Shown here: positions 32,972 through 45,900 of the stretch, one piece after another
How positions within the stretch are numbered: position 1 is the stretch's first letter
Layout of the letters: every line of letters begins with the position of its first letter
NCBI GenBank assembly: GCA_026394555.1
Contig: JAPKXZ010000009.1
Coordinates: 1-45,900, forward strand
Reading direction: 5' to 3'
DNA: 45,900 nt
Origin: Methanothrix sp.
GTDB taxonomy: Archaea > Halobacteriota > Methanosarcinia > Methanotrichales > Methanotrichaceae
Position numbers and translations under genes: made by a program
Notes under the pieces: generated by a model
Database searches by the model: none
What the model was told of the DNA's origin: nothing
What the model saw: the letters and a program-made list of their open reading frames with translations, nothing else

Positions 32972-34237
32972 CTAGCGTCGCCTGACCGGATACGGCTTTC
33001 TGGGTGCTGATTTGTGCGCGCTCTCCTGTCGGGACCCTCTCGCCGTGGCCCTCCCTCGATAGGAATTGGCCGATTCGGCTGCGGCCCCCACGGCCATCTT
33101 TGCCGTTTCGGAATGGTACTGGTGCTCCATGACCGCTACTTTCGTCCGTATCAGCCGTTCAATGCTGCGCAGGAAATTGCGTTCATCTGCAGCGCAAAAC
33201 GAATATGCTTTGCCATCCGCTCCGGCACGCCCCGTGCGACCGATGCGATGGATATAGCTCTCCGGCTCGTTGGGCAGATCGAAGTTAATCACATGGGATA
33301 TTTCATCAACGTCAATTCCCCTCGCGGCAATATCCGTTGCCACAAGCACCCGCAAGCGGCCGGATTTGAAATCATGCATGGCCTTGGTGCGCTGGTTTTG
33401 CGACTTGTTGCCGTGAATGGCATCGGCGTTGATCCTGCTCTTGTTGAGCGCCTCAGCGATCTTATCCGCCCGGTGCTTGGTTCGTGAGAAGATCAAGACG
33501 CGTTCCATATCTTCATCTACGATAAGCCTCTGCAATAGCGGAAACTTATTGTTTTGATCCACAAAGAAAACGCTCTGCTTGATGCACTCGAGAGTGCTGG
33601 CCTGGGGAGTGACCTCGATGCGTACGGGATCGGTGAGAAGCTTTTCTGCAAACTCGCCTGTCTCCCGGGACACGGTGGCCGAGAAGAAAAGCGATTGATG
33701 CTTTGGCGGCAGAGCTGCGACTATCCGGCGCATATCCTTGATGAAACCCATGTCAAGCATGCGGTCTATCTCATCCAGGACGAAGAACTCTACGCCCCTC
33801 AGCATAATGTAGCCCTGATTCATCAGGTCGAGCAGCCGGCCGGGTGTGGCAACCAGGACATCAACGCCTTGAGAAAGCATCTTGACCTGCGGCCCTTGAC
33901 GGACCCCACCGAATACGACTGTATGCCGGAAGCGCATAAACTGGCCGTATGTGGCAAAGCTCTGGTCTATCTGTGCGGCCAGCTCTCTGGTAGGTGCAAT
34001 AATCAGAGCGCGCGGAACTCCGGGGGGGGAGGGCCGGTGCTGTTCCGATATCTTTTGCAGTATGGGCAGCACGAATGCTGCGGTCTTGCCTGTGCCTGTC
34101 TGAGCGATGCCCATCAGGTCTTTTCCATTCAAGAGATGGGGTATAGCCAGCGTCTGTATGGGTGTCGGTGCAGTGTATCCTTCCTTGGCCAATGCTCGGC
34201 AAAGCGGATCTATGATATTTAAATTTCCAAATGACAT
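32972..34237 (-). CDS. DEAD-box ATP-dependent RNA helicase (RhlE/DeaD type)
   Basis: The 421-residue protein has all helicase motifs: Q motif YTAPTPIQTLAIPHLL, I AQTGTGKT, Ia PTRELA, Ib TPGRLLD, II DEID (Ile in place of Ala), III FSATV, IV VLIFSRTKHRAD, V LVATDIAARGIDVDEI and VI YIHRIGRTGR. A short basic tail (RGRATARGSRQESAHKSAPRKPYPVRRR) probably binds RNA. Length and tail resemble RhlE. It unwinds RNA duplexes in ribosome assembly or cold adaptation; the cold role is inferred from relatives in methanogens. The ATG at 34237 follows a long structured leader. It is monocistronic on the minus strand. Confidence 0.95.
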   Translation of the reverse strand: MSFGNLNIIDPLCRALAKEGYTAPTPIQTLAIPHLLNGKDLMGIAQTGTGKTAAFVLPILQKISEQHRPSPPGVPRALIIAPTRELAAQIDQSFATYGQFMRFRHTVVFGGVRQGPQVKMLSQGVDVLVATPGRLLDLMNQGYIMLRGVEFFVLDEIDRMLDMGFIKDMRRIVAALPPKHQSLFFSATVSRETGEFAEKLLTDPVRIEVTPQASTLECIKQSVFFVDQNNKFPLLQRLIVDEDMERVLIFSRTKHRADKIAEALNKSRINADAIHGNKSQNQRTKAMHDFKSGRLRVLVATDIAARGIDVDEISHVINFDLPNEPESYIHRIGRTGRAGADGKAYSFCAADERNFLRSIERLIRTKVAVMEHQYHSETAKMAVGAAAESANSYRGRATARGSRQESAHKSAPRKPYPVRRR

Positions 34238-34425
34238 TCTTGCCTCTAGATAATTTTAGGTTTCGATCTTTGATTTGGTTGAAGTCCTTTGATGCGGATC
34301 CGAAAAGAAACTGGTTGAGTCGTATCTGTTGTCTCTTAATACGGAGAGATACTTCAACCGGCTGCAGAGGCACTTGGGGAAGAATGCTACTTTGTTAAAA
34401 CGAAATGACAATAATATTATAATCA
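34238..34425 (-). promoter_or_regulatory. Long structured 5' leader and promoter of the DEAD-box helicase gene
   Basis: GGTTGAAGT (34277-34285) pairs with ACTTCAACC (34351-34359). Inside, CGTAT (34321) pairs with ATACG (34340), and there is a CGGATCCG palindrome. TTATAATATTATTG on the minus strand near 34410-34425 is the best TATA candidate, implying a leader of about 150 nt, long for an archaeal mRNA. Confidence 0.5.
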
Positions 34426-34812
34426 AATCCTTTTAATATCGCCTTGATTGCTTAGCAGGCCTTTCGCCTGTGCTTTTGGCAAGCATTCCTGGGAATATGC
34501 AGGCTTGGATCCATTTTTCAGAGAAAGGTGTCCCGGTACCACGTCCCAAATCGGAACATGCCACGTCGGTCGTCTCTCCTGGACCAATATTCAAGCCGTC
34601 TCTGCCATTTCCAAATCTCATTTTTTCTATTTATCCTTTTTATCGATTTCAAGAATCGATCGGTGCTCGCAAAAACATCTCAACAGCTTTTTTGAATCAA
34701 TGCAAATGAAGCCTATTAACGAGGTGCACTTTAGTCTATATACCTGTCGGTCAAATATCTGCCCGTCAAATCTTCTTGATCTTCAAAAAATCGCCATTTA
34801 ATGGATGTTTTT
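34426..34812. other. Gene-free stretch left of the integrated element
   Basis: Short frames cross this region on both strands (for example 34433-34621 minus and 34448-34801 plus), but none has a ribosome site or recognisable family. I see no RNA gene. Confidence 0.45.
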
Positions 34813-34870
34813 ATGCGGGATACGGGATTCGAACCCGCGAACTCCTGCGAGACAGGATCTTAAGTCCTGC
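34813..34870 (-). pseudogene. attL: 58-bp tRNA-Leu 3' fragment
   Basis: This is an exact copy of 43068-43125: anticodon stem-loop 3' part, long variable arm, T-arm and acceptor 3' strand with the discriminator A. Identity stops at 34871, just inside the anticodon stem/D-arm side. It is the displaced 3' end of the original host tRNA gene after site-specific integration. Confidence 0.9.
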
Positions 34871-34892
34871 TAAGGGGGTAGCTACCCCCTTA
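34871..34892. repeat. Perfect 22-bp palindrome abutting the att core
   Basis: The half-site TAAGGGGGTAG is followed by its exact reverse complement, starting at the first base after the tRNA-derived core. It is a candidate integrase/excisionase arm site or a hairpin terminator. It is not present next to the right att. Confidence 0.7.
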
Positions 34893-34974
34893 ACCCCTTT
34901 GATATTGATTTTAATGATGGATCTCTTTCAAGGGATCTTATTCTATTGTTTGGACTGCTTCGCGAGGTGTAAGG

Positions 34975-35841
34975 ATGAGGCAGAAGTTACAGGCTATATC
35001 TTGGGACTTACCAGGGAATGACACCAAGCTTAGACGATTCAAGCGATATTTAAAGAATAGAGGAGTAAGACCAAGCACATTGGAAGATTACCTTTTCCGA
35101 GTATCAAAGTATTTTGAATTTTGTGGTGATAAGGAACCATCACCTGAAATGGCACAAAAATACAGAGATCATTTGCTAGATCGAAATTTATCAAATTCTT
35201 CTGTCGCTAATTACTCATTTGCGATAAAAGACTATCATAAAATGTTAGGGCAAGATATAAAATTCCCTAATCTTAAACGGGCTAATGAAATACCGTTTTT
35301 CTTTACATCCTCCGAAGTTAACAAAATATTTGATAAAATAAATAATATCAAGCATCTCGCGATGTTTAAAACCGCTTTTTATGCGTGCCTTCGTGCATCG
35401 GAGCTTTGTAACCTCGATATAGAGGATATTAATCTCGTTAATCAAGCCCTTATTGTTAGAGACGGCAAAGGCGGCAAAACTGCAGTTGCCTATTTAAGTG
35501 AAGAAGCTGTTGAAACCTTACGCGAATACTTATCAGTTAGACCAGATTTTGAACTTGAAGGCAGAAGGCCATTGTTTTTTACAGATTATGGAAGCCGATT
35601 TAACCGCAAAGAAATCTACCGCTTAACAATTTATTTTAAAGAACGTGCTGGAATAACCAAGAAAGGCGGTGCACATGTTCTCTTTAGACATACTCCTGCC
35701 TCATTAATGGTAAAAAATGGTTGTGATTTGCTTACTATTCAGCTTGTAATGAGACACAATAACATAACTACTACAATGAGATATTTGCATTTAGCTGATG
35801 ATGTCAAAAGATCAAAATACGACCAATTTTTGAGGTTATAA
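34975..35841 (+). CDS. int: Tyrosine recombinase / integrase
   Basis: The 288-residue protein has an N-terminal SAM-like core-binding domain (about 18-95: RFKRYLKNRGVRPSTLEDYLFRVSKYFEFC) and a catalytic domain with Arg in FYACLRASELCNLDIEDI, Lys in IVRDGKGGKTAVAYLSEEA, AHVLFRHTPASLM, and MRHNNITTTMRYLHLADDVK holding the second His and the catalytic Tyr. Box II normally reads HxLRHTFA; here one residue is inserted (HVLFRHTPA), which may affect activity. GAGGTG precedes ATG 34975. Its position 100 bp from attL and the XerA-like size indicate that it integrated the element into tRNA-Leu. It is followed at 13 bp by a small DNA-binding-type gene. Confidence 0.93.
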   Translation: MRQKLQAISWDLPGNDTKLRRFKRYLKNRGVRPSTLEDYLFRVSKYFEFCGDKEPSPEMAQKYRDHLLDRNLSNSSVANYSFAIKDYHKMLGQDIKFPNLKRANEIPFFFTSSEVNKIFDKINNIKHLAMFKTAFYACLRASELCNLDIEDINLVNQALIVRDGKGGKTAVAYLSEEAVETLREYLSVRPDFELEGRRPLFFTDYGSRFNRKEIYRLTIYFKERAGITKKGGAHVLFRHTPASLMVKNGCDLLTIQLVMRHNNITTTMRYLHLADDVKRSKYDQFLRL

Positions 35842-35854
35842 AGGGCTGATATTC

Positions 35855-36268
35855 ATGGAATCCGCACTTATCACAATACCGATCTCTGAATATCAGCGAT
35901 TAATTGAAGGGATCTCTGAGATATCAAAGCTTCGGGCCAAGATAGCAGAGCTGGAAGCCCGCCAGGACACGGATATAGAGCGTTTGGCCTTGGACATCGC
36001 CCTTGATAGGCAAAGGCTGGCAAAGCTAGAGAAGATCGAGCCACAGCCACTACAGAAAGACAGAGGCGAGATCCTCCGGGCCTTGCTCGCGGCAAATGGC
36101 GGCAAGATGCTCGCGAAGGATGCACGCCAAAAACTAAGGATGGATAAAGGCAATTTTTCGCGATTATTGGATACTCTGAAAGATCATATTGATATCAAGC
36201 CGCTAAATTCTGATAAGAGGAAATTGCTATTAATTATAAAAAGTCGTGAATTAGTTGTACACAACTAA
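35855..36268 (+). CDS. Small coiled-coil plus winged-helix-like protein of the element
   Basis: The 137-residue product starts SALITIPISEYQRLIEGISEISKLRAKIAELEARQDTDIERLALDIALDRQRLAKLEKIE, a coiled coil of about 60 residues. A helix-rich basic domain follows: RGEILRALLAANGGKMLAKDARQKLRMDKGNFSRLLDTLKDHIDIKPLNSDKRKLLLIIK. The second half reads like a winged helix (two helices, recognition helix KGNFSRLLDTL, then a basic strand). The stop codon lies inside the first of two 25-bp palindromic copies, so it may bind those sites. It is cotranscribed with the integrase and could be a directionality or copy-control factor; this is inference. Confidence 0.68.
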   Translation: MESALITIPISEYQRLIEGISEISKLRAKIAELEARQDTDIERLALDIALDRQRLAKLEKIEPQPLQKDRGEILRALLAANGGKMLAKDARQKLRMDKGNFSRLLDTLKDHIDIKPLNSDKRKLLLIIKSRELVVHN

Positions 36269-36275
36269 CAACTAA
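36251..36275 (-). repeat. Palindromic 25-bp element, copy 1 (inverted)
   Basis: TTAGTTGT, 2 bp, ACAACTAA, followed by a further CAACTAA half-site. The reverse complement matches copy 2 at 36417-36441 in 21 of 25 positions. Two of the four differences are paired across the dyad, keeping the symmetry. Confidence 0.7.
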
Positions 36276-36416
36276 TTTAGCGATCTTTAGCTAAGACTTA
36301 GGTTTCGCATTAATCGCATTGGAATTTATGCGATTATATGATATTGATTACTTTGAGATAGAGATGAATATAAAGTAATATATTATAAATAGTGGTATTA
36401 GGGTTATTAGAGAAAA

Positions 36417-36441
36417 TTGGTTGTTGGTTGTATACAACCAA
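36417..36441 (+). repeat. Palindromic 25-bp element, copy 2
   Basis: A TTGGTTG half-site is followed by the perfect 18-bp palindrome whose half is TTGGTTGTA (36424-36441). With copy 1 it brackets the 140-bp gap between two convergent genes of the element. Confidence 0.7.
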
Positions 36442-36452
36442 TTAGAAACTTT

Positions 36453-36998
36453 TTAAATAGGTAGTTTTCCCACCATTTCAACGTGAATTGTTTTTAGCAG
36501 ACCAAGTGTTCCGTCATCCCACGGATAATAGGAATTTATTGATACTTTGGTATCACCGGACATGTTGAACATCGGCCAATATTGTGCAATAAACCGGTTA
36601 GAATCTCCCTCGTAGTTCTCTCCTACTCCAAGAATACCTGATTTGCCATCGATTATTCTATCATATGTATCATAGTCGTAATATGGTGAATTTAAAAGAG
36701 TATCTCTGATATTAGATTTCATCTCATCAATGTCCTTGTTCATTTGATTACTCGAAAAATAACTTATAGTAATGAATGCAATATTGTTGCTGTCGTTTAT
36801 TTCTGTCTGGTAACTAACGTAAGATATGCCACCGTAAGTCTCTGCATATTCAACAGGTATGGTATTATTGATACTATATTCGTGTGTCGTGTTTAGATCA
36901 AATGAAACCTTGTATGGCCCCATAGTCAAGGATTCTTGTTTTGCTATAGATACCGACACTAACAGCAAAGATAGGATCAAAATTAGTAATATTCTCAT
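36453..36998 (-). CDS. Secreted protein of unknown function carried by the element
   Basis: The 181-residue product has a clear signal peptide (MRILLILILSLLLVSVSIAKQ) followed by a beta-rich, Tyr/Asn-rich domain (GPYKVSFDLNTTHEYSINNT, TYGGISYVSYQTEINDSNNIAFITISYFSS, IDEMKSNIRDTLLNSPYYDYD, SGILGVGENYEGDSNRFIAQYWPMFN, VSINSYYPWDDGTLGLLKTIHVEMV). Several N-x-S/T sequons would be glycosylated outside the cell. The family is not recognised, although the layout resembles short methanogen exoproteins. It converges with the integrase operon. As cargo it could alter the host surface or exclude other elements; no evidence decides this. Confidence 0.7.
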   Translation of the reverse strand: MRILLILILSLLLVSVSIAKQESLTMGPYKVSFDLNTTHEYSINNTIPVEYAETYGGISYVSYQTEINDSNNIAFITISYFSSNQMNKDIDEMKSNIRDTLLNSPYYDYDTYDRIIDGKSGILGVGENYEGDSNRFIAQYWPMFNMSGDTKVSINSYYPWDDGTLGLLKTIHVEMVGKLPI

Positions 36999-37619
36999 AA
37001 CTTGTGGTTGAACTTTCTAGCAAAAAAGGTTTTGGTGGTCATCTCTAGAATTGCGACAAGTCTTTTTTTCCTAGCTTCTTCTTATAACTCTATCCTTCTG
37101 ACAAAGCAGATAAAAATAGGAGCGACTACGTGTAACTTTCAGGAATATGCTTAAAATCGCTATGCTCTAAAAGAGCCAAATATTATTATAAATACACTTC
37201 TAGCTCGATCATCATGGGTTTGCGATATGGAAAATAGGTTTACAAAATGGTGTCGGTGCATATCGATTATACCGATAGCAGAGAGAAAAACGATTCATAC
37301 CTATAAACTATGAAATGGCTTGTTTGTTCAAATAGCTTTTTCCCCTATTTTGGCCCTTCCAAGTGCTACCATATATAACTTGTAAGTAAATGGTCCCCCC
37401 GTTGCGACGGGACCCACCATTTACCTTTTCATAATCCCTTAACTATTCTTCGATTTTTAATAAGTACTTTGATAATTAATTTGGCCTATATAAGTTCTAT
37501 TGGTATGGATCAGTCTTTTTAACTTCTATCAATTATTTTGAATTAAGGGATAGAGGGAGCAAAAAGACGTGGAATACGTGGTTTTGGCAAAGAGTTTTTC
37601 TCAGAATATCTAAATAAAT
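36999..37619. other. Gene-free part of the element
   Basis: No frame with a ribosome site is seen between the secreted-protein gene and the CTATAG tract. The only clear structure is the hairpin at 37386-37424. Confidence 0.5.
37386..37424. repeat. Strong two-part hairpin
   Basis: GTAAATGGT (37386-37394) pairs with ACCATTTAC (37416-37424), and inside it CCCGT (37398-37402) pairs with ACGGG (37407-37411) around TGCG. It is a G/C-rich island in AT-rich DNA, about 200 bp from the CTATAG tract. It could be part of a replication origin, a transfer site or an RNA. Confidence 0.65.
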
Positions 37620-37897
37620 CTATAGCAAAGAAACCATCATCGGCAAGCACATCTATAGCAGCACCCAAAAAAAACCGCTATCAAGATAGCTGCTATAGAT
37701 AATGCGAAAAAATGGCCTATAAACTTTTTATTATATACGATCTAGATTTATACATAAATGTTATACTCTATTTATCTATAGTTCTATAGCATTTAAAGGA
37801 AAAGAGGTTAATAGATAGTGTTTTAACCTGCTATAGATTTGCTATAAATGCTATAGATATTTTAAAAACAAATAGCAGCAAAATTAAGCTGCTATAG
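37620..37897. repeat. CTATAG-rich iteron-like tract, candidate replication origin
   Basis: The palindromic hexamer CTATAG occurs at 37620, 37653, 37693, 37776, 37784, 37831, 37851 and 37892, mostly as gCTATAGat or tCTATAGca, with near copies such as gctataaat at 37841. Two hairpins are embedded: GCTATC/GATAGC at 37677-37690, and TAGCAGC/GCTGCTA at 37873-37894. The tract is very AT-rich and ends about 30 bp from the 3' end of the replication helicase gene. Confidence 0.6.
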
Positions 37898-37927
37898 ATG
37901 TCTTCTTTTAAAAAAATTAGTTGATTT

Positions 37928-39346
37928 TTATAAAATATTACCTTCTTTCCATATATCAAACGATTCTTCATTGAAAGTAGTATTAGGCCATATTGCAACA
38001 GATTTACCTTTAACATGTGTTCCGCTATTGCTTTTACCTTCTAACCAACTAACATTCTTAGTTATCCATCTGCCAAAAAGATTTTGGTTTTTATTTGATA
38101 TTTTCAATTTTTCACAATATTGTTTATAAAAATTATATAAATCCACTTTGACACAATAAAAACCTGGGGTTTCACTAACGAATTTATCAAAGAAATTCTC
38201 CTCTGGTTTTGATCTTTCAGAATACATCTCTTTAGCTTCCGCCGTTGTTAGCTGATTAGTAAAGGCATTTCTCTTAATTAGATCCGGCAAAAGCTTAATG
38301 GCCTTGTTAAATAATCCTGATAGCTCTTCAGGACTTGTTAATGAGTCCAAAAAATTTTTATCATAGTCTTCTTTTGTGTAAACATGCTCAAATTTTGCGA
38401 TCTCTACTCTTTTGGCAAAACCTGCTATATCTTCCTCTATAGGCGGTATTATGTTTGTGCAAAATATTAGTTTTGCAAAATTAATATAGTTAATGGAGGA
38501 TTTATATAAATCGCGTGCTCTAATTGGATCAGTATTACTAATTAAACTTTTGATAATGCCGGTATTGCCTATCATATCTTTACTTAATTCACTGCAAAGA
38601 TTTGCCAACTTACCGAAAAATTCAACTAATGCCGGTTTATCTTTTACTATATCTTGAAGGGATACCGAAGATTTATTTTGAGTACCTACAAACTTAATCA
38701 GGATGTCCAAGAATACGCTTTTTCCCGTATTTGGCGGCCCAAATAAGATTAAGAATTTCTGTATTGGATAACTTCGATAAAGCAAATAGGCCACAAATTC
38801 ATAAAGCTTAGTGATATCTTTGGGCCTTGCCGCTACTTCAAGCATTTTATCAATATTTGGGCATGTAGCAACTGGATCATAGATAACTGGTATTTGTATA
38901 ATACTTAGATATTCAGGATCATGCTCTTTAAATTCTCCCTTAGACCAATTGTATAACCCATTCTTCATATTAATTATAAATATATCTTTATCAAAATCTT
39001 CTAATTTTATTCTGCTTAATGTCTGAATTTTATATATTATTTCGGTTTGCATTTTTTTGTTAGAAATAGATTCTCCATATGGATTATATAGATTGAAAAA
39101 CATGTTTGTCAAATATGTTCTTATGACATCTTCGGCAGCGCTTTTATAAACCCCATTTTCATAGAAATACATTTCTTTACCAATGGTTTTTATATGCATT
39201 TCACTTTCTATATATTTTGCGCACTTATCTGCAAGAATGCTTTCTATATTCTGATCTTCATCAATTTGCAAAAGTGATCTTTGCAAACCAGAAATAAATA
39301 ATATCTTTGGCGTGCTATCAGATTTACAAGAAGTATTAGCAGCCAT
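37928..39346 (-). CDS. D5/P4-type SF3 replication helicase (primase-helicase C-terminal type)
   Basis: This protein of about 472 residues has a D5_N-like region (about 30-180: YFYENGVYKSAAEDVIRTYLTNMF, FIINMKNGLYNWSKGEFKEHDPEYLSIIQIPVIYDPVATCP). The SF3 ATPase has Walker A LFGPPNTGKS near 205, Walker B-like LANLCSELS, motif C FAKLIFCTNIIPP, and the arginine region GFAKRVEIAKFE. A winged-helix-like end follows (VDLYNFYKQYCEKLKISNKNQNLFGRWITKNVSWLEG). No primase domain is fused, so it is the helicase half of a plasmid/virus replication module. ATG 39346 has GGTGG upstream; GTG 39358 is in frame too. It is the last gene of the minus-strand operon and lies next to the origin-like tract. Confidence 0.88.
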   Translation of the reverse strand: MAANTSCKSDSTPKILFISGLQRSLLQIDEDQNIESILADKCAKYIESEMHIKTIGKEMYFYENGVYKSAAEDVIRTYLTNMFFNLYNPYGESISNKKMQTEIIYKIQTLSRIKLEDFDKDIFIINMKNGLYNWSKGEFKEHDPEYLSIIQIPVIYDPVATCPNIDKMLEVAARPKDITKLYEFVAYLLYRSYPIQKFLILFGPPNTGKSVFLDILIKFVGTQNKSSVSLQDIVKDKPALVEFFGKLANLCSELSKDMIGNTGIIKSLISNTDPIRARDLYKSSINYINFAKLIFCTNIIPPIEEDIAGFAKRVEIAKFEHVYTKEDYDKNFLDSLTSPEELSGLFNKAIKLLPDLIKRNAFTNQLTTAEAKEMYSERSKPEENFFDKFVSETPGFYCVKVDLYNFYKQYCEKLKISNKNQNLFGRWITKNVSWLEGKSNSGTHVKGKSVAIWPNTTFNEESFDIWKEGNIL

Positions 39347-39347
39347 G

Positions 39348-39575
39348 CTAAACGCCACCCTGATGCTTAATTAATCTGATATCCATTATAGCAGATTTGG
39401 CAACAGAGACGATACTTCCATCTTTCCTTTCTATTGTGAGGAATAGCTTGGATACTCTGATTAGCCTTCCATGTAATGGTTCCGGTTGATTGCATATACG
39501 TGAAATTATAATTTTATTCTGGAATTCTGCAAATTCCTCATTATCCGTGATAGGATTAGTATTATTTATATCCAT
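39348..39575 (-). CDS. Small beta-rich protein, possible Sm/SH3-like fold (element)
   Basis: The 75-residue protein ends in EPLHGRLIRVSKLFLTIERKDGSIVSVAKSAIMDIRLIKHQ. The alternation of short strands (LHGRLIRV, LFLTIER, SIVSVAKSAIMDIRL) is what a small Sm-like or SH3-like barrel would show, and the ending KSAIMDIRL parallels KYHIIDIKI in the gene at 40021 and KFSIKMIRL at 40514. No family is recognised with certainty. GGAGTTG stands upstream of the ATG. The stop codon overlaps the start region of the helicase gene, so the two are translated together. RNA or DNA binding is a guess. Confidence 0.65.
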   Translation of the reverse strand: MDINNTNPITDNEEFAEFQNKIIISRICNQPEPLHGRLIRVSKLFLTIERKDGSIVSVAKSAIMDIRLIKHQGGV

Positions 39576-39599
39576 AGTTTTACAACTCCTTATATTTTT

Positions 39600-39737
39600 T
39601 CACATGCTTGATAATTCCGCTAGATCTTTTATGAACTTCTCTTTTTGCTCGATTGCCTTAATAGAGTCCTTTCTGATTTTTTCTAACCAATTTTTATAAT
39701 TACTTTTCGTATTTTTCGTTCTTGAATTTCCTGTCAT
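39600..39737 (-). CDS. 45-residue basic peptide gene of the element operon
   Basis: ATG 39737 to TGA 39600-39602 encodes a highly charged helix-forming peptide starting MTGNSRTKNTKSNYKNWLEK, rich in Lys (KNTKSNYK, EKIRKDSIKAIEQKEKFIKDLAE). GAGGT lies about 9 nt before the ATG, and the gene is spaced 24 bp from the next small gene. It is in the same direction as its neighbours. No family is recognised; a DNA-binding or coiled-coil accessory role is possible. Confidence 0.55.
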   Translation of the reverse strand: MTGNSRTKNTKSNYKNWLEKIRKDSIKAIEQKEKFIKDLAELSSM

Positions 39738-39842
39738 AATTCCATTACCTCTTTTTTTTGTCGATATTTTATAATAGCAGAAAAATAGAATTTTTAGAAA
39801 GCATCAGCATGATATTTTACAGTGATGTTTTCTTAAATTCAA

Positions 39843-39915
39843 TTTCCGCCTATCGTTATTTCTTTTTCATTTTCCTTGCGGAAACTGAAGGGTTTAGGCG
39901 GCCAAACCTAAACCC
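39843..39915 (-). other. Double-hairpin intergenic structure in the element operon
   Basis: TTTCCGC (39843-39849) pairs with GCGGAAA (39878-39884), and GGGTTTAGG (39890-39898) pairs with CCTAAACCC (39907-39915). It lies between the genes at 40021 and 39737, so it may terminate, attenuate or process the operon transcript, or mark a separate small RNA. Confidence 0.5.
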
Positions 39916-40020
39916 AAAATAACAAGCATTAATAGTCTTGCAATCTATTTAAATCTATCTATGACTTTGTATATTAGTTAACGAAAACTATTAACTTTTA
40001 TTTCTAAGGTGTTTATTTTA

Positions 40021-40263
40021 CTAAAGTATTTCCAAATTCCGCTGCTCAGAATTCATTTGCCCGATATTTCGGTAGTATCCTGTACAAATTTTAATATCTA
40101 TAATATGATATTTTCTGAGCAAACTCCTAAATCCATGTGAGTTTTCTACCATCACAAAATCATTATTCATTGAGACGACTTTTGCAGCAATCGAAAACTT
40201 TCCTTTTGAATCATATGTCAATATATTACAAATTTGATTTATCCAATTTCTTTGTATTTCCAT
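40021..40263 (-). CDS. Small beta-rich protein, possible Sm/SH3-like fold (element)
   Basis: The product of about 80 residues reads MEIQRNWINQICNILTYDSK, then GKFSIAAKVVSMNNDFVMVENSHGFRSLLRKYHIIDIKICTGYYRN. The run FSIAAKVVSMNNDFVMVENSHGFRSLLRKYHIIDIK has the spacing of a five-strand Sm-like barrel and is similar in layout to the proteins at 39348 and 40514. ATG 40263 is preferred because GGAGCTGGTGA stands directly upstream; ATG 40290 lacks a site. It lies in the minus-strand operon of the element, with the double hairpin downstream. Function is unknown. Confidence 0.62.
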   Translation of the reverse strand: MEIQRNWINQICNILTYDSKGKFSIAAKVVSMNNDFVMVENSHGFRSLLRKYHIIDIKICTGYYRNIGQMNSEQRNLEIL

Positions 40264-40276
40264 TTTCACCAGCTCC

Positions 40277-40411
40277 TTATTCCCAATCATCTTTTTTCAT
40301 AGTATCGGTAAATATTTGTATCAACAAATTTCTATAAACAATTATATGGTGCCGTTTTCGCATATTCTTACATTGTAAAATTTCTTCAGGATTTAATTTC
40401 TTCAATCTCAT
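40277..40411 (-). CDS. 44-residue basic peptide gene of the element operon
   Basis: ATG 40411 opens a 44-codon frame: MRLKKLNPEEILQCKNMRKR then HHIIVYRNLLIQIFTDTMKK. AGGAGTTG about 8 nt upstream supports this start over a 66-codon frame beginning at 40477. The peptide is basic with a Cys and a probable amphipathic C-terminal helix. It ends 13 bp before the next gene in the operon. No family is recognised. Confidence 0.5.
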   Translation of the reverse strand: MRLKKLNPEEILQCKNMRKRHHIIVYRNLLIQIFTDTMKKDDWE

Positions 40412-40513
40412 CTTTTTATCAACTCCTATATATTTATATAATAGATTGCATAAATCTTCTCCTGAATTAATTATCAAGCATTCAAAAAATTAAAATGATT
40501 TGTCACAAATCCC

Positions 40514-40723
40514 TTAAGCTAAGCGTATCATTTTTATTGAAAACTTACCTAAAATTCCAAATTTGTCTAGGACGATATTATTCGCGGTTTCTTCCAAAAT
40601 TACATCAGTAAGCTTTTCTCCACTAATTAATTTTATTACAACAGATTTATTAAAAAATTCTGCGTATTTATCTGTAATTTCGGTTGCCGCTACTTTATTT
40701 CTATGGTGACTTAACCAAGTCAT
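40514..40723 (-). CDS. Small beta-rich protein, possible Sm-like fold (element)
   Basis: The 69-residue product starts MTWLSHHRNKVAATEITDKY, and its second half FFNKSVVIKLISGEKLTDVILEETANNIVLDKFGILGKFSIKMIRLA resembles Sm/Hfq motifs: a strand V-I-K-L-x-x-G-x-x-L, an acidic turn, a strand NNIVLDKFG, then a closing strand. It is the best Sm-like candidate of the three in this element. GGAGATGA lies 5 nt before ATG 40723, and a TATATATAT run just upstream may be an internal promoter. If real, an RNA chaperone or oligomeric ring is expected. The assignment is inferred from pattern only. Confidence 0.62.
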   Translation of the reverse strand: MTWLSHHRNKVAATEITDKYAEFFNKSVVIKLISGEKLTDVILEETANNIVLDKFGILGKFSIKMIRLA

Positions 40724-40744
40724 TATTATCATCTCCATATATAT

Positions 40745-41062
40745 TTAGCTAAATTTTAGCACTTGCTTTGATATTCCCTTATCTTTTGGCTTAGAGAACC
40801 AAGGTATGTCCGATCTGTCAGATTCAAGATCCTTGGTTAGCTCAGCTCTTTCATAGGCGGCTTGCAATTCGTCCTCAGACATACATTTGAGCTTGTCTAC
40901 CTCCGCCTGGTGATGATCTTCGGCGGCTTTTGCAATCAAGTGCTCGCGGTACATTTCCTCAGTTTCTTTGGGCTTGAATGCTTTATCTACTTTATCAGAT
41001 TCTTTTGCTTCCCTTTCGTTGTACGCTTTTTCTATTGCGGCCATTTCTTCATCATATCCCAT
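40745..41062 (-). CDS. Acidic/charged helical protein of the element operon
   Basis: The product of about 105 residues is rich in Glu, Lys and Ala: MGYDEEMAAIEKAYNEREAKESDKVDKAFKPKETEEMYREHLIAKAAEDHHQAEVDKLKCMSEDELQAAYERAELTKDLESDRSDIPWFSKPKDKG. It is predicted to be mostly helical, possibly coiled coil, and resembles no family I can name. ATG 41062 with AGGAGTGA upstream is preferred to ATG 41071, which would overlap the preceding stop codon. It belongs to the minus-strand operon that ends with the SF3 helicase. An adaptor or structural role is possible. Confidence 0.68.
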   Translation of the reverse strand: MGYDEEMAAIEKAYNEREAKESDKVDKAFKPKETEEMYREHLIAKAAEDHHQAEVDKLKCMSEDELQAAYERAELTKDLESDRSDIPWFSKPKDKGISKQVLKFS

Positions 41063-41067
41063 GTTAA

Positions 41068-41292
41068 TCACTCCTTAGACTTATTTATAATATTCATAAT
41101 GTCTTTGTACTCATCAATTCCACAAATCAGAACAAATTCCTTAGAACTTTCAGGATCTTTTAATATCACCCATTGGATAATATTGTCAGTACCAAGCACG
41201 TTTTGAACCTGAGAAGGTAGCCCGATATTTTTTGCGTGCTTGTTGCTGCATGTATTTATGCTTCTGACAAACTTATTAACAGTTTCAAACAT
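41068..41292 (-). CDS. Small unknown protein of the element operon
   Basis: The 74-residue protein reads MFETVNKFVRSINTCSNKHA, then KNIGLPSQVQNVLGTDNIIQWVILKDPESSKEFVLICGIDEYKDIMNIINKSKE. The second half looks like a small alpha/beta domain (strands IIQWVILKD and KEFVLICGID, then a helix). AAGGAGATG lies well placed before ATG 41292. The stop codon overlaps the start region of the next gene, indicating coupling. No family is recognised. It is the second gene of the element operon. Confidence 0.7.
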   Translation of the reverse strand: MFETVNKFVRSINTCSNKHAKNIGLPSQVQNVLGTDNIIQWVILKDPESSKEFVLICGIDEYKDIMNIINKSKE

Positions 41293-41294
41293 AT

Positions 41295-41879
41295 TTATTC
41301 ATCTCCTTGTATAATAGATTTAACTTGATTACTATAAAAATCCAATTGTTTTATTTTTGCTTCTTCCGCAAGGATATATTTTTCATGATCCTCTTTAAAT
41401 TTTTTGAATTGAGGATTTGCCAAAACTTGATCCAAAGTTTGCCCTTTTGACTGCAATCCTGATCTATAGGCAACTTCATTTTTCACTCTGCTCATGAAGG
41501 TATTTATTTTATGGATGCTTTCGCTCCTCATATGCTCAATTCCCGACAATGTAGGCGAGATTAATGCAGGATATTTTAATTGAACTTCATGAAATAATGG
41601 GTTGAGTTTATTAAAGATGGAATTTAGTCTTGCCAAGTTTTGCATCTCACTGAGTTCATTATTAACTGATGTTTCAAAAGCTATTTTGTCACAAATAACA
41701 ATCTTCGCACTACCATTATCAGGAGCTAATGAGCAAAATCCCCAACGTTGGCTTCGGAGTTCATTGACTTTTTCTACAATTTCTGCCTTTTCCTTGCCCG
41801 CACTGATCACGGGATCTGTTTCAAAACCGTCGTCGGCTGCATTGATAGCATAGTTCTCGCACGATTCTTCAAACCTCAT
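41295..41879 (-). CDS. Unknown helical protein, first gene of the element operon
   Basis: The 194-residue product starts MRFEESCENYAINAADDGFE and is mostly helical: AGKEKAEIVEKVNELRSQRWGFCSLAPDNGSAKIVICDKIAFETSVNNELSEMQNLARLNSIFNKLNPLFHEVQLKYPALISPTLSGIEHMRSESIHKINTFMSRVKNEVAYRSGLQSKG...KFKEDHEKYILAEEAKIKQLDFYSNQVK. Heptad-like spacing suggests coiled coils. No signal peptide or known motif is visible. GGTATGGTGA precedes ATG 41879, inside the end of a tiny possible leader ORF. It heads an operon of about eight genes ending with the replication helicase, so a replication- or element-specific function is likely. Confidence 0.7.
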   Translation of the reverse strand: MRFEESCENYAINAADDGFETDPVISAGKEKAEIVEKVNELRSQRWGFCSLAPDNGSAKIVICDKIAFETSVNNELSEMQNLARLNSIFNKLNPLFHEVQLKYPALISPTLSGIEHMRSESIHKINTFMSRVKNEVAYRSGLQSKGQTLDQVLANPQFKKFKEDHEKYILAEEAKIKQLDFYSNQVKSIIQGDE

Positions 41880-42262
41880 ATATATTCACCATACCTTTAG
41901 ATTTATCTTCAATATTACTCATACCTTCATTTACAACCATCTTTTTATATATTTTATATATCCCTTTAAGGACAATATTTTCCAAAAATTGGTACAATTG
42001 TGATATACTGCACAATGATAATTAAAGGGGTTTTTCAAGAATTATTTCCATTTTGATTATAAAATACATTTCATTAGAACCATCTATGAATATATCGCGA
42101 CGTTTTAGGAGCCAATTGCGTACATATTCTATACATATAAAGAAATCCGGCCCTTGCAGCACATCGGCCCGAAACTACCCGGCTCATTAGTAAGGCCCGG
42201 CCCGCCCTATAGCGTCAGATTAAAGATGTTATAAATAGCATTCCAATTGGAGGGATAAAAGA
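41880..42262. promoter_or_regulatory. Divergent control region of the element operon and the PH-SHOCT gene
   Basis: On the minus strand a double TATA run (41943-41962, tatatattttatata) predicts transcription from about 41922-41929. A 17-23-codon frame (TGA ending at 41869) then overlaps the ATG at 41879 and may be a leader ORF. On the plus strand TTATAAATA (42229-42237) and GGAGGG (42249-42254) precede the gene at 42263. A GC-rich run ggcccggcccgcccta lies at about 42193-42209. Confidence 0.5.
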
Positions 42263-42817
42263 ATGCCACAAGATGCACCACTCAACGCCTGTATGTCAAA
42301 GGTAAACGAAATTTTAACTTCTGAAGAGTCTATAATCTTTTCCGTTTCCCAAACATCTATTGCAGGACTTAAACCGGATACCGTTGTTTTAACGAATAAG
42401 CGTTTCATTCTCTACCATCCTGGATTACTAGGATGCAAGTTTGATGATTTCCTTTGGCGCGATCTTATAAACGTAAAATTGAATGAAGGCATTATGGGAG
42501 CTAAACTAACATTTGAAGCTAAAAATAATAAAATAACCGTTGATAAACTCCCAAAAACTGAGGCACGAAAAGCCTACTCAATCGCACAAGAAAAAGAACA
42601 AGAAGCTAATGAAAATAGACGACAAAGACAGATGCAAGAAGATTCAGCCAAAGCCGGGCATATTGTTGTTGGAAATGTTGGAGCAGGAAACCAACCAACT
42701 ACAGTTGCAGATGATCCAATGGCAAAGCTTACCAAGTTGAAAAATATGTTTGACGCCGGACTTATAACTCAAGAAGAGTACGATAAAAAGAAAGCAGAAA
42801 TACTAGCATCGATGTGA
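42263..42817 (+). CDS. Bacterial-PH-like domain plus C-terminal SHOCT domain protein
   Basis: The 184-residue protein has a PH-like domain (about 10-105: VNEILTSEESIIFSVSQTSIAGLKPDTVVLTNKRFILYHPGLLGCKFDDFLWRDLINVKLNEGIMGAKLTFEAKNNKITVDKLPKTEARKAYSIAQ), with the TNKRFILY core typical of YdjZ/YvbH-like PH domains. A Glu/Gln-rich linker follows, then a SHOCT motif at the end (DPMAKLTKLKNMFDAGLITQEEYDKKKAEILASM). SHOCT regions commonly mediate oligomerisation. GGAGG lies about 9 nt before ATG 42263. It is the only plus-strand gene on the right side of the element, 250 bp from the right att, so it may be cargo acting on the host; its target is unknown. Confidence 0.85.
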   Translation: MPQDAPLNACMSKVNEILTSEESIIFSVSQTSIAGLKPDTVVLTNKRFILYHPGLLGCKFDDFLWRDLINVKLNEGIMGAKLTFEAKNNKITVDKLPKTEARKAYSIAQEKEQEANENRRQRQMQEDSAKAGHIVVGNVGAGNQPTTVADDPMAKLTKLKNMFDAGLITQEEYDKKKAEILASM

Positions 42818-43068
42818 TTTATATATAATTTTTATTTTTACTTCCATCAATTTAAATGAATATAATTTAAACAATTTATTACTAATATTTCTTTTTGGAA
42901 TGTCAAAGAGATCATGCCAAATGGATGACTTGGTAGGGCTTCCTCATTGAAATTCAAGGAGGTTACGCGACAGTGTCACCTGCAAATGACCCGCAAAGGT
43001 TTATATGATCGCGACTAAAGTCTAGTAAGGCAGTCAAAAATAGAAATCGATATCAATAGACTAAATCA

Positions 43069-43152
43069 TGCGGGATACGGGATTCGAACCCGCGAACTCC
43101 TGCGAGACAGGATCTTAAGTCCTGCGCCTTTGGCCAGCTTGGCTAACCCCGC
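43069..43152 (-). tRNA. tRNA-Leu (anticodon TAA), attR of the element
   Basis: The 84-nt class II tRNA folds completely. The acceptor GCGGGGT pairs with ATCCCGC and the discriminator is A. The anticodon stem CAGGA/TCCTG encloses loop CTTAAGA with anticodon TAA, read in the gene direction. A long variable arm (CTC/GAG) and T-arm with TTCGAAT follow. CCA is not encoded. Its 3' 57 bp are duplicated at 34814-34870, so the element supplies this half and keeps the gene functional. Confidence 0.95.
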
Positions 43153-43218
43153 GCTCATCAGATCTATACTTCTGGAATAAGTACTTTGCCGATGCAATAG
43201 AAAAAATAAGATGGCGGC

Positions 43219-44160
43219 TTAAATATAGACCGCTGTTCCCGGTTCCACGTAGATTATCTTCTGAACTCCTCTTGTGAAGAACATTGTCTTCGGGTAGTTG
43301 AACTGGCCATCATAGATCCGAACATCGTGGTTCCTACCACCAACTACACGAAAGCTGAACCTTCCATCAAGTAAGTCTCTACTGGTCCCATCCGTGCCTA
43401 TGTAATTGCCATCCAGGAATACCTGATATCCTTTCATCCCCTTTGAGACAATAGTCACTGGTGTGTCTCCTGTCGCAGGAGGAACAATCTGGGCGGGCGG
43501 ATAGCTGGGAGTTGTCTGTGGATATGTTGGCGGATAGGTGCTGGTAACATCGATGACTATGGCATTGCTTACCTGGCCGCCGATAATGAAGAGCAGTACA
43601 TGCTGACCAATTGTATCTGCATAGAAGTCAATCTGGCTGCTGCCTGGGAAGAAGTAGAAGCTTTCCTTGGATAGCTTTCCATCAGGGGTTATCTCATACA
43701 GATAGCCGTTGCCTCCCGTGGAAGAGGTTGCCAGCAGAGTGAGGCCGGACCACTGGGGAACTTTGGCATACTGGGACCAGCTGGAAGAGCCCAGTATCCA
43801 CAAGGAGTTTCCTCCTGTGTAGGCGGCATTGCTTTGATATTGGGTGTACGGCACAGCTTGCATCTGATAGCTAAAATAAACCGTGCTCGGCGTGCTGTCC
43901 ACTATCACATGCTTCTTTGGGCTCTCAATATGCTTCTTGGGGGTCGATCCTTTGTAGGACCAGAAGTATTGAGAAAAGATGTGGTCAGCTGCGCTGGAAG
44001 ACGGCGGATTGCCGCCTACCCATGGCTGGCCGATGCCCAGCTCAAACAACTTCTCAGCTCTCGCTTCTCCTGGTAGCAGCTCTACGCCGCTTCTATCTAC
44101 GGCAATTGCACACCCCACTAAAGATATAATGAGGACTATCGATATCAAGATTTTATTCAT
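43219..44160 (-). CDS. Secreted protein with a PEGA-like C-terminal domain
   Basis: The product of about 313 residues has a signal peptide (MNKILISIVLIISLVGCAIAV; the LVGC could also be lipobox-like), then VDRSGVELLPGEARAEKLFELGIGQPWVGG. A beta-rich middle (NSLWILGSSSWSQYAKVPQWSGLTLLATSS, LYEITPDGKLSKESFYFFPGSSQIDFYADTIGQHVLLFIIGGQVSNAIVIDV) resembles a cell-surface beta-sandwich. A Pro/Thr/Tyr-rich linker precedes a PEGA-like end (VTIVSKGMKGYQVFLDGNYIGTDGTSRDLLDGRFSFRVVGGRNHDVRIYDGQFNYPKTMFFTRG). AGGTGA lies before ATG 44160; GTG 44169 is in frame. This layout is common in methanogen envelope proteins. Function is unknown. Confidence 0.75.
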   Translation of the reverse strand: MNKILISIVLIISLVGCAIAVDRSGVELLPGEARAEKLFELGIGQPWVGGNPPSSSAADHIFSQYFWSYKGSTPKKHIESPKKHVIVDSTPSTVYFSYQMQAVPYTQYQSNAAYTGGNSLWILGSSSWSQYAKVPQWSGLTLLATSSTGGNGYLYEITPDGKLSKESFYFFPGSSQIDFYADTIGQHVLLFIIGGQVSNAIVIDVTSTYPPTYPQTTPSYPPAQIVPPATGDTPVTIVSKGMKGYQVFLDGNYIGTDGTSRDLLDGRFSFRVVGGRNHDVRIYDGQFNYPKTMFFTRGVQKIIYVEPGTAVYI

Positions 44161-45729: not shown

Positions 45730-45828
45730 ATTTTCTTAATTTACGGGCTTTCTCTGGTGAAGGTCGTGATTTAACTATAGGTTGTTATAAATAGAACTAC
45801 ACTGCATATGATACATGGGGTGTAGCAA

Positions 45829-45900
45829 ATGGGAAAAAGAGGTCCAAAACCACGATTCATGGATGTAGCATGTCCAAATGAGAGGTGTACTCTGTTTGGA
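45829..45900 (+). CDS. Start of a zinc-ribbon transposase-like gene, cut by the window edge
   Basis: ATG 45829 opens a frame reading MGKRGPKPRFMDVACPNERC then TLFG, still open at the last base. The GKRGPKPRFxDVACPNxxC opening with the first two cysteines of a zinc ribbon resembles the N-terminus of IS1-related archaeal transposases. A TATA box ggttgttataaata lies at about 45780-45793. Only 24 residues are visible, so the family assignment is provisional. Confidence 0.5.
   Translation, partial: MGKRGPKPRFMDVACPNERCTLFG

Follow-up and report, generated by a model that had tools for sequence, protein, structure and literature searches.

What kind of genetic element occupies the tRNA-Leu(TAA) gene of this Methanothrix sp., and how would it spread? 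In the 45.9-kb stretch of DNA that was analysed (the window), the original prediction placed an undescribed replicating element, possibly a new family of integrative plasmids or minimal viruses. As judged from its sequence, the element is complete and apparently intact, with its own replication helicase and without recognisable virion genes. An integrase, a winged-helix regulator (wHTH), an Sm-like protein and an SF3 helicase form a cassette that, by homology, is common to the element and to tail-less capsid-bearing proviruses. Among the explanations considered below, we tentatively favour a capsid-less integrative Methanothrix element spreading as a virus satellite.

The element measures 8,255 bp, as given by the spacing between the copies of an exact 58-bp direct repeat (34813-34870 and 43068-43125). 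This is the duplication of the tRNA-Leu 3' part that had been announced, and the earlier span of 34814-43125 holds as a repeat-bounded element, its start being off by one (34813). The right copy (43068-43125) is the 3' part of the target gene, an intact tRNA-Leu(TAA) found by ARAGORN (43069-43152, minus strand); the window contains no other tRNA gene. The distal copy (34813-34870) extends from the anticodon stem to one base past the tRNA and corresponds to a single continuous site in congeners. An empty tRNA-Leu site, proposed as a check, was indeed found. In G008, the entire tRNA connects the left and right flanks with a clean junction, and the site is also uninterrupted in G010 and G001. Thus, the tRNA repeat, the integrase inside and the empty sites characterise a tRNA-integrating element of the tyrosine recombinase type and demonstrate, at the sequence level, integration into tRNA-Leu(TAA). 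As the genome is a draft assembly in 75 contigs, an artefact of assembly might be suspected. However, the contiguous empty sites in three congeners exclude an assembly error. Such an artefact is also contradicted by the sharp step in GC content at the att copies (33.9% within the element, 52.0% outside) and by the presence, at other tRNA genes, of independent elements built in the same way, and is therefore exceedingly improbable.

The expected adjacent tyrosine integrase starts 104 bp inward of the left att copy. This XerA-like protein of 288 aa (34975-35841, plus strand) matches PF00589 (6e-29), the XerA structure 5hxy (8e-32) and, under the cut-off of that model, NF040815 (7.5e-45). It is 80% identical to the integrase of L021 (DDXZ01000040.1), a contig of 14 kb that was wrongly binned as Dehalococcoidia and has the same tRNA-Leu att, and 72% identical to that of L074, from IMG/VR; the three form a clade in the tree (100/99). 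The genes of L021, and not its record, point to Methanothrix as its host. Thirteen bp after the integrase, the wHTH regulator of 137 aa (35855-36268, plus strand) is recognised from profile matches to MarR_2 (3e-4) and DUF7343 (5e-3), both under cut-off; its homologue in M. soehngenii GP6 does pass the DUF7343 cut-off. Further homologues occur in L065 (66%) and in L021 (69%, C-terminal part). A palindrome, TTAGTTGTACACAACTAA, lies over the wHTH stop codon (36251-36268) and is proposed to be an operator. L065 and L067 have palindromes of different sequence at the equivalent place. A second palindrome, TTGGTTGTATACAACCAA (36424-36441), is found 173 bp from the first, and the L067 pair is spaced by 174 bp. 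Between both palindromes, a conserved non-coding stretch (36316-36382) has a 93% copy in contig C2 of the same genome and partial copies in L065, L056, L067 and L097.

The D5/SF3 helicase of the original prediction was confirmed as a D5_N and DUF5906 protein of 476 aa (37928-39358, minus strand; 2e-14 and 1.7e-17, respectively) of the P4-family primase C-terminal type, TIGR01613 being above cut-off; it has no recognised primase domain. In the tree, it is sister to the GP6 and L021 helicases (100/100). No relative was found in the PDB by phmmer. None was found in IMG/VR either, a search that was insensitive since L072, found later via its capsid, does encode one. Overlapping the helicase start, an Sm-like protein of 75 aa (39348-39575, minus strand) belongs to a set of homologues located immediately upstream of replication genes. 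Its AlphaFold2 model (pLDDT 76) consists of a helix and five strands and is nearest to Hfq/Sm chains, with weak E-values. The helicase gene is followed by an AT-rich iteron tract (37618-37899), the proposed replication origin. The suspected origin-like repeats are real: seven of the nine GCTATAGA/TCTATAGC octamers of the window fall within the tract, a count reached by none of 500 dinucleotide shuffles, and an eighth lies elsewhere in the element, at 36943. Iterons are also significant in L059, L064, L074 and L076; they are not in the GP6 provirus and L021, which have the closest helicases. In seven elements, a candidate shared origin motif, TARYGRTTT, seemed enriched after the replication gene. 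It is treated as a lead only, because it was derived from those same sequences, occurred once against 0.77 expected in a held-out set of 13 helicase loci that are more distant, and was not clustered in most other loci.

On the same strand as the helicase, a compact operon begins with a 194-aa orphan protein (41295-41879), the C-terminal half of which is predicted to be helical. There follow, all on the minus strand, a 74-aa protein (41068-41292) having an ATGA overlap with the gene of a 108-aa charged protein without meaningful family (40745-41071, AAGGAG upstream), another 74-aa protein with no family above cut-off (40514-40738), a 66-aa ORF starting at TTG or, in a shorter version, at ATG (40277-40477), an 89-aa protein weakly resembling the Sm-like family (40021-40290; hhalign E 9e-4, probability 23%) and a 45-aa protein without Pfam match, preceded by GAGGT (39600-39737). 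A link of the 74-aa protein at 40514-40738 to the Sm-like family was considered and is not supported. Two genes are regarded as cargo. One codes for a secreted protein of 181 aa with an N-terminal signal-like segment (36453-36998, minus strand), whose family is represented in all 26 congeners, with identities of 23-39%; its homology to secreted proteins of L074, L076 and L055 was not supported by hhalign. The other codes for the PH-SHOCT protein already noticed (184 aa, 42263-42817, plus strand), now identified by PF14470 (2e-14) and PF09851 (2.5e-10), with a homologue in G013 (79-81%) that has no element gene alongside. Apart from integrase, helicase and PH-SHOCT protein, the genes were said to match nothing. 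This holds for orphans such as the 194-aa protein and fails for the wHTH, 75-aa Sm-like and secreted proteins, which have relatives in the genus, as does the helicase. Defence-system models gave no meaningful match in the element. Four short matches of the operon region to CRISPR spacers of 50 family genomes were inspected and had no surrounding array.

No capsid, terminase or portal gene was recognised in the element with Pfam, PHROGs and NCBIfam, nor any relaxase, conjugation or partition gene with Pfam or NCBIfam, in agreement with the absences first noted. Archaeal relaxases being poorly known (PMC11389934), only known kinds of relaxase, and with them known kinds of conjugative or mobilizable plasmids, are excluded. 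The element was called undescribed, which fits the absence of a near-identity match among 72,556 plasmids, of a distant DNA match in phage records and of any description in the literature searched. That literature also contained no archaeal PICI-like family, and the exact tRNA-Leu att pattern was absent from IMG/VR. Could the virion proteins of a minimal virus of a new type hide among the orphan small genes? Several orphans have no relatives, including the 194-aa protein, for which none was found in 238 genomes of the class or in IMG/VR. However, no capsid-like or membrane-virion-like gene was recognised in Pfam, PHROGs or NCBIfam, most orphans are shorter than 110 aa, and the low-confidence model of the 194-aa protein (pLDDT 56) has no significant structural match. 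Lacking a recognisable virion gene, a minimal virus is highly unlikely and the weakest of three readings, the others being plasmid and satellite.

The closest relatives do have virion genes. The complete GP6 provirus (L054:2937-18466, 15.4 kb) and L021 carry scaffold, capsid, terminase, portal and neck genes without recognised tail genes, and thereby resemble capsid-forming PICIs (cfPICIs); as far as ORFs were scanned, GP6, L021 and L074 fit the cfPICI plan. With GP6, L021 and the IMG/VR elements L074 and L076, the element has in common the integrase family, the targeting of tRNA 3'/5' halves, the wHTH and an Sm-like gene before the replication gene; with GP6 and L021, the SF3 helicase; and with L021, the tRNA-Leu(TAA) att. 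Its integrase and helicase fall in supported clades with the GP6, L021 and L074 elements, which defines here a Methanothrix int/wHTH/SF3 element family. In contrast, those four carry scaffold, capsid, adaptor, terminase, portal and MuF genes, whereas the element has its own small-gene operon, not seen in them. It is thus neither a Caudoviricetes provirus, having no major capsid, terminase or portal gene, nor a cfPICI, having no capsid or packaging genes of its own. It may be asked whether it derives from an L021-like provirus by loss of the head block, as a dead or domesticated remnant. L021 also has its helicase and Sm-like genes on the strand opposite the integrase and uses the same att site, and GP6 contains a degenerate relative of 3.35 kb whose integrase is broken. 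Yet even a threshold of E 5 gave no head-gene fragments in the element, only short chance matches; the main genes are all open, and the operon is intact with overlaps and ribosome-binding-like sites. Moreover, the helicase is only 42-46% identical to those of the capsid-bearing relatives, which argues for an old split, and at least two other bounded elements are capsid-less. Such a deletion is accordingly improbable.

These two tRNA-bounded elements of congeners (G013:C23:16584-31484 and G022:C135:51891-68059, with exact repeats of 58-64 bp) encode the same integrase family (44%), an Sm-like gene and a replication-type gene, and no head genes. They differ in size (14.8 and 16 kb), in their large replication proteins and in carrying GmrSD or E2/ThiF/JAB defence cargo. 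L055 (G013:C75) was considered as a sibling for its Sm-like gene and 447-aa helicase, and set aside, its integrase being a fragment and no ends having been found. By gene content, the element has the features of a satellite: no virion genes, its own integrase and a replication gene. It is comparable with the Vibrio PICMI satellites, defined by an integrase, AlpA and a DUF3987/DUF5906 primase at fis (PMC10803314). These are 6-8 kb long and also combine an integrase, a small regulator, a DUF5906-type replication protein and few other genes, without capsid or capsid-remodelling genes. However, it is not itself a PICMI: PICMIs need AlpA and have a proven helper, while the present element has a wHTH, neither AlpA nor DUF3987, and a tRNA-Leu site. 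In archaea, an integrated satellite was proposed from a capsid-less island (PMC4158269), likewise small and with a replication protein; its prim-pol or fusellovirus-related replication proteins and its hosts are different.

The main rival is an integrative plasmid, which would excise, replicate from its iteron origin by means of its own helicase without any virus, and spread through natural transformation, in vesicles or by a conjugation route that escapes recognition, the cassette being merely common to viruses. In its favour, the element has a helicase and an iteron tract of its own, no packaging feature was recognised, P4-type replication proteins are also found on plasmids, and defence cargo like that of the siblings is carried by plasmids and satellites alike. 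This reading is a serious possibility, if a rather doubtful one, as no relaxase or partition gene was recognised and the relatives closest in integrase, att site and helicase all bear head genes. The latter relationships, including the 80% integrase identity and the shared wHTH, argue, still short of an even chance, for a satellite, as do the head-less elements of the same integrase family and the likeness to the PICMI gene set. Against it, neither a helper nor a packaging site, TerS or capsid-redirecting gene came to light, the genome, a draft, gave no TerL or GP6-type capsid match, and the family likeness concerns integration and replication rather than transfer. A virus satellite is at least as likely as an integrative plasmid. 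Of the new family first proposed, a plasmid is possible and a minimal virus highly unlikely; the element is rather a capsid-less branch of a Methanothrix family whose nearest members carry a tailed-virus head module.

A satellite cycle may be envisaged as follows. Recombination between attP and the anticodon-loop region of tRNA-Leu(TAA) is the work of the integrase and leaves the tRNA intact, as the repeat and empty sites show. The wHTH would control the element via the paired palindromes until relieved by entry of a helper virus, and the integrase would excise a circle. The helicase, the Sm-like protein and other operon proteins would then open the AT-rich iteron tract, with priming presumably supplied by host or helper, as no primase domain is recognised. 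A tailed Methanothrix virus would provide the particles for packaging the circular or concatemeric DNA, and the secreted and PH-SHOCT proteins may be envelope-directed cargo. A model for the helper, and not a relative of the element as a whole, is the 36.5-kb tailed virus vir515 (BK063672.1; host Methanosarcinales), with a tape measure. Its capsid (52%), terminase and portal are homologous to those of the tail-less relatives, and a phrog_864 primase is a further likeness.

Bacterial satellites of tailed viruses are well known. For archaea, the literature searched names fusellovirus satellites and one proposed integrated satellite (PMC4158269). It is tempting, on still uncertain grounds, to imagine Methanothrix as hosting an archaeal equivalent of the PICIs and their kin. 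One lineage, defined by integrase, wHTH, Sm-like and replication genes, would exist in cfPICI-like forms (~15 kb) and in capsid-less satellite forms, namely the 8.3-kb element and those whose cargo is GmrSD or E2/ThiF/JAB; all of these forms would parasitise full tailed viruses of methanogens. The idea is directly testable, since the strain that bears the GP6 element is in culture and its genome is complete. A second question is raised by the occurrence of Sm-like proteins next to the replication gene in capsid-bearing and capsid-less forms alike. If the idea is true, the same parasitic strategy would operate in a major acetate-using methanogen, through tail-less forms that bear capsids as well as through capsid-less ones.

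The exact 58-bp duplication of part of a tRNA-Leu gene, claimed in the original prediction, is borne out. The two copies lie at 34813-34870 and 43068-43125, and the right one is part of tRNA-Leu(TAA), the sole tRNA gene in the window (43069-43152, minus strand). GC content is 33.9% between the copies versus 52.0% in the rest of the window. The window spans the whole of one 45.9-kb contig, and the draft genome to which it belongs has 2.53 Mb. The genus is Methanothrix, since a plasmid contig of the congener G004 proved identical to NC_015430.1 (Methanothrix soehngenii GP6) across 3 kb compared. An empty tRNA-Leu site, which the same prediction proposed to look for, was found most clearly in a congener contig (G008:C316), where a match to 33000-34870 is followed by the full tRNA and by a match to 43068-43355, the two flank matches overlapping by the 58 bp of the repeat. 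The place is also uninterrupted in G010:C186 and G001:C102. At the level of sequence, integration of the element into tRNA-Leu is shown. The last 139 bp of the contig, at its right end (45762-45900), are found again within C12 and at the ends of three other contigs (C6, C30 and C75); this repeat probably broke the assembly.

From left to right, the element encodes an integrase (+), a winged-helix (wHTH) regulator (+) and a secreted 181-aa protein (-), followed by a repeat tract, a leftward operon and a PH-SHOCT protein (+), with a coding share of about 73%. The operon products have 194, 74, 108, 74, 66, 89, 45 and 75 aa, before a 476-aa helicase. The helicase carries D5_N and DUF5906 and scores above the TIGR01613 cut-off (P4-family primase C-termini); domain-profile searches recognised no primase domain in it. 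The integrase is XerA-like. In most integrases of the family (window 34975-35838 and relatives), the catalytic His-Arg motif is H-x-x-x-R-H (HVLFRHT, HVFSRHT), longer by one residue than the H-x-x-R-H (HVLRHT) of XerA. The secreted protein has family members in all 26 of 26 congeners; sheath-like proteins with a signal peptide, of 159-288 aa, are encoded by many Methanotrichales viruses (PMC11576556). The PH-SHOCT protein, like the secreted one putative cargo, has a homologue (79-81% identity) in the congener G013, where none of the element genes is adjacent to it.

The reading frame of the 75-aa protein extends over the start of the helicase gene. Its homologues lie directly upstream of replication genes in three loci (L055, L059, L064), and similar small proteins precede those of L021, L074 and L076. 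The predicted structure, an N-terminal helix and five strands (pLDDT 76), falls among small beta barrels, closest to Hfq and Sm-type chains (TM about 0.65-0.7, with E-values of only 7e-3 to 5e-2). An Sm-like fold is likely, and the protein may bind nucleic acids in replication. Downstream of the helicase, an AT-rich tract (37618-37899) contains CTATAG-cored iterons beyond chance (reached in 0 of 500 shuffles). In L059, L064, L074 and L076, too, a comparable tract with iterons of other sequence lies after the replication gene; no significant iterons were found in the corresponding position of L054 and L021. The anatomy of the element suggests that it would be replicated by the helicase together with this tract. 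A non-coding stretch at 37179-37326 is 82% similar to G002:C203:4413-4560.

Two 18-bp palindromes, at 36251 and 36424 (173 bp apart), stand on either side of a conserved non-coding stretch. At the same place, L067 has two identical palindromes 174 bp apart, of a sequence unlike that of the window, and L065 has one. Because the shape is kept while the sequence changes, these may be operators of the co-varying wHTH. A 93% copy of the non-coding segment 36316-36382 lies elsewhere in the same genome (contig C2, L095:9495-9561), with a tRNA-Pro gene some 2 kb away, and is possibly the scar of another element.

The closest integrases are those of L021 (80% identity) and of the IMG/VR contig L074 (72%). 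In the integrase tree the window groups with L021, and L074 comes next (support 100/99 at both forks). The helicases of L021 and of the Methanothrix soehngenii GP6 element are sister to that of the window (100/100). Since a tRNA-Leu 3' sequence identical to that of the window adjoins the L021 integrase, the two elements use the same site. L021 (DDXZ01000040.1, 14.3 kb), filed under a Dehalococcoidia UBA2247 MAG, is a Methanothrix-type element with a tRNA-Leu att at its end; judged from its sequence, its placement in that public genome is a binning error. The wHTH is common to the window, L021, L054, L074, L067 and a decayed 3.35-kb GP6 element (L065:7252-10684) at tRNA-Leu(TAG), with a 46-bp repeat, a broken integrase and an intact-looking wHTH (66% to that of the window).

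The complete GP6 element (L054:2937-18466, chromosome 1685936-1701465; 15.4 kb) is bounded by a 107-bp repeat including the 5' half of tRNA-Ser(GCT). The head block common to GP6, L021 and L074 comprises scaffold, phrog_267 major head protein, adaptor Ad1, 117-aa protein, TerS-like protein, TerL (phrog_2), portal (phrog_533) and MuF. Identity among the three is 97-100% for the capsid and 90-100% for the portal, and the L021 head genes are 88-97% identical to those of GP6. No tail family match was found among their scanned ORFs, small ORFs outside the scan being able to hide divergent tail genes. The tailed virus vir515 (36.5 kb; assigned to Methanosarcinales), whose capsid is homologous to theirs (52%), differs in encoding a tape measure along with further tail genes. 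To encode a head but no tail is the plan of capsid-forming PICIs (cfPICIs); for the three elements a likeness to this plan is proposed, not membership. Among cultured archaea, the GP6 element is a candidate of this cfPICI-like kind.

Two further elements have no match to the GP6-type head block. That of G013:C23 (about 14.8 kb, tRNA-Leu(CAA), 58-bp exact repeat at its ends) encodes an integrase, Sm-like proteins, a helicase of 872 aa and, as defence cargo, the restriction protein GmrSD (L119:9405-11186). That of G022:C135 (about 16 kb, tRNA-Ser(GCT), 64-bp repeat) holds an integrase, one Sm-like gene and, again as defence cargo, an E2/ThiF/JAB protein whose gene adjoins a metallo-beta-lactamase-like gene (L120:9889-14117). 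Capsid-less elements with this integrase family therefore recur, and the window element is not a lone deletion.

Searches with the element found no near-identical plasmid in a plasmid database and no similar DNA among phage records. The passages on satellites in PMC11389934 state that archaeal viruses have satellites, and those in PMC4158269 propose that a small element lacking a capsid is an integrated satellite; neither set describes the present family. Methanothrix does not come up in the main text of PMC11705971, a study of 38 head-tailed proviruses of archaea. Earlier work cited in PMC11576556 reported Methanotrichales proviruses, which may include the GP6 element. The lack of packaging features would fit an integrative plasmid, a reading that we consider possible, if rather doubtful. 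The element's own draft genome yielded neither a terminase nor a GP6-type capsid, so that no helper is seen to reside there; satellites lacking a resident helper are known, according to the same passages of PMC11389934. It is tempting, and quite possibly correct, to regard the element as a satellite packaged by a helper virus, because of its kinship with head-bearing elements and of a minimal gene set similar to that of PICMI, a Vibrio satellite (PMC10803314).
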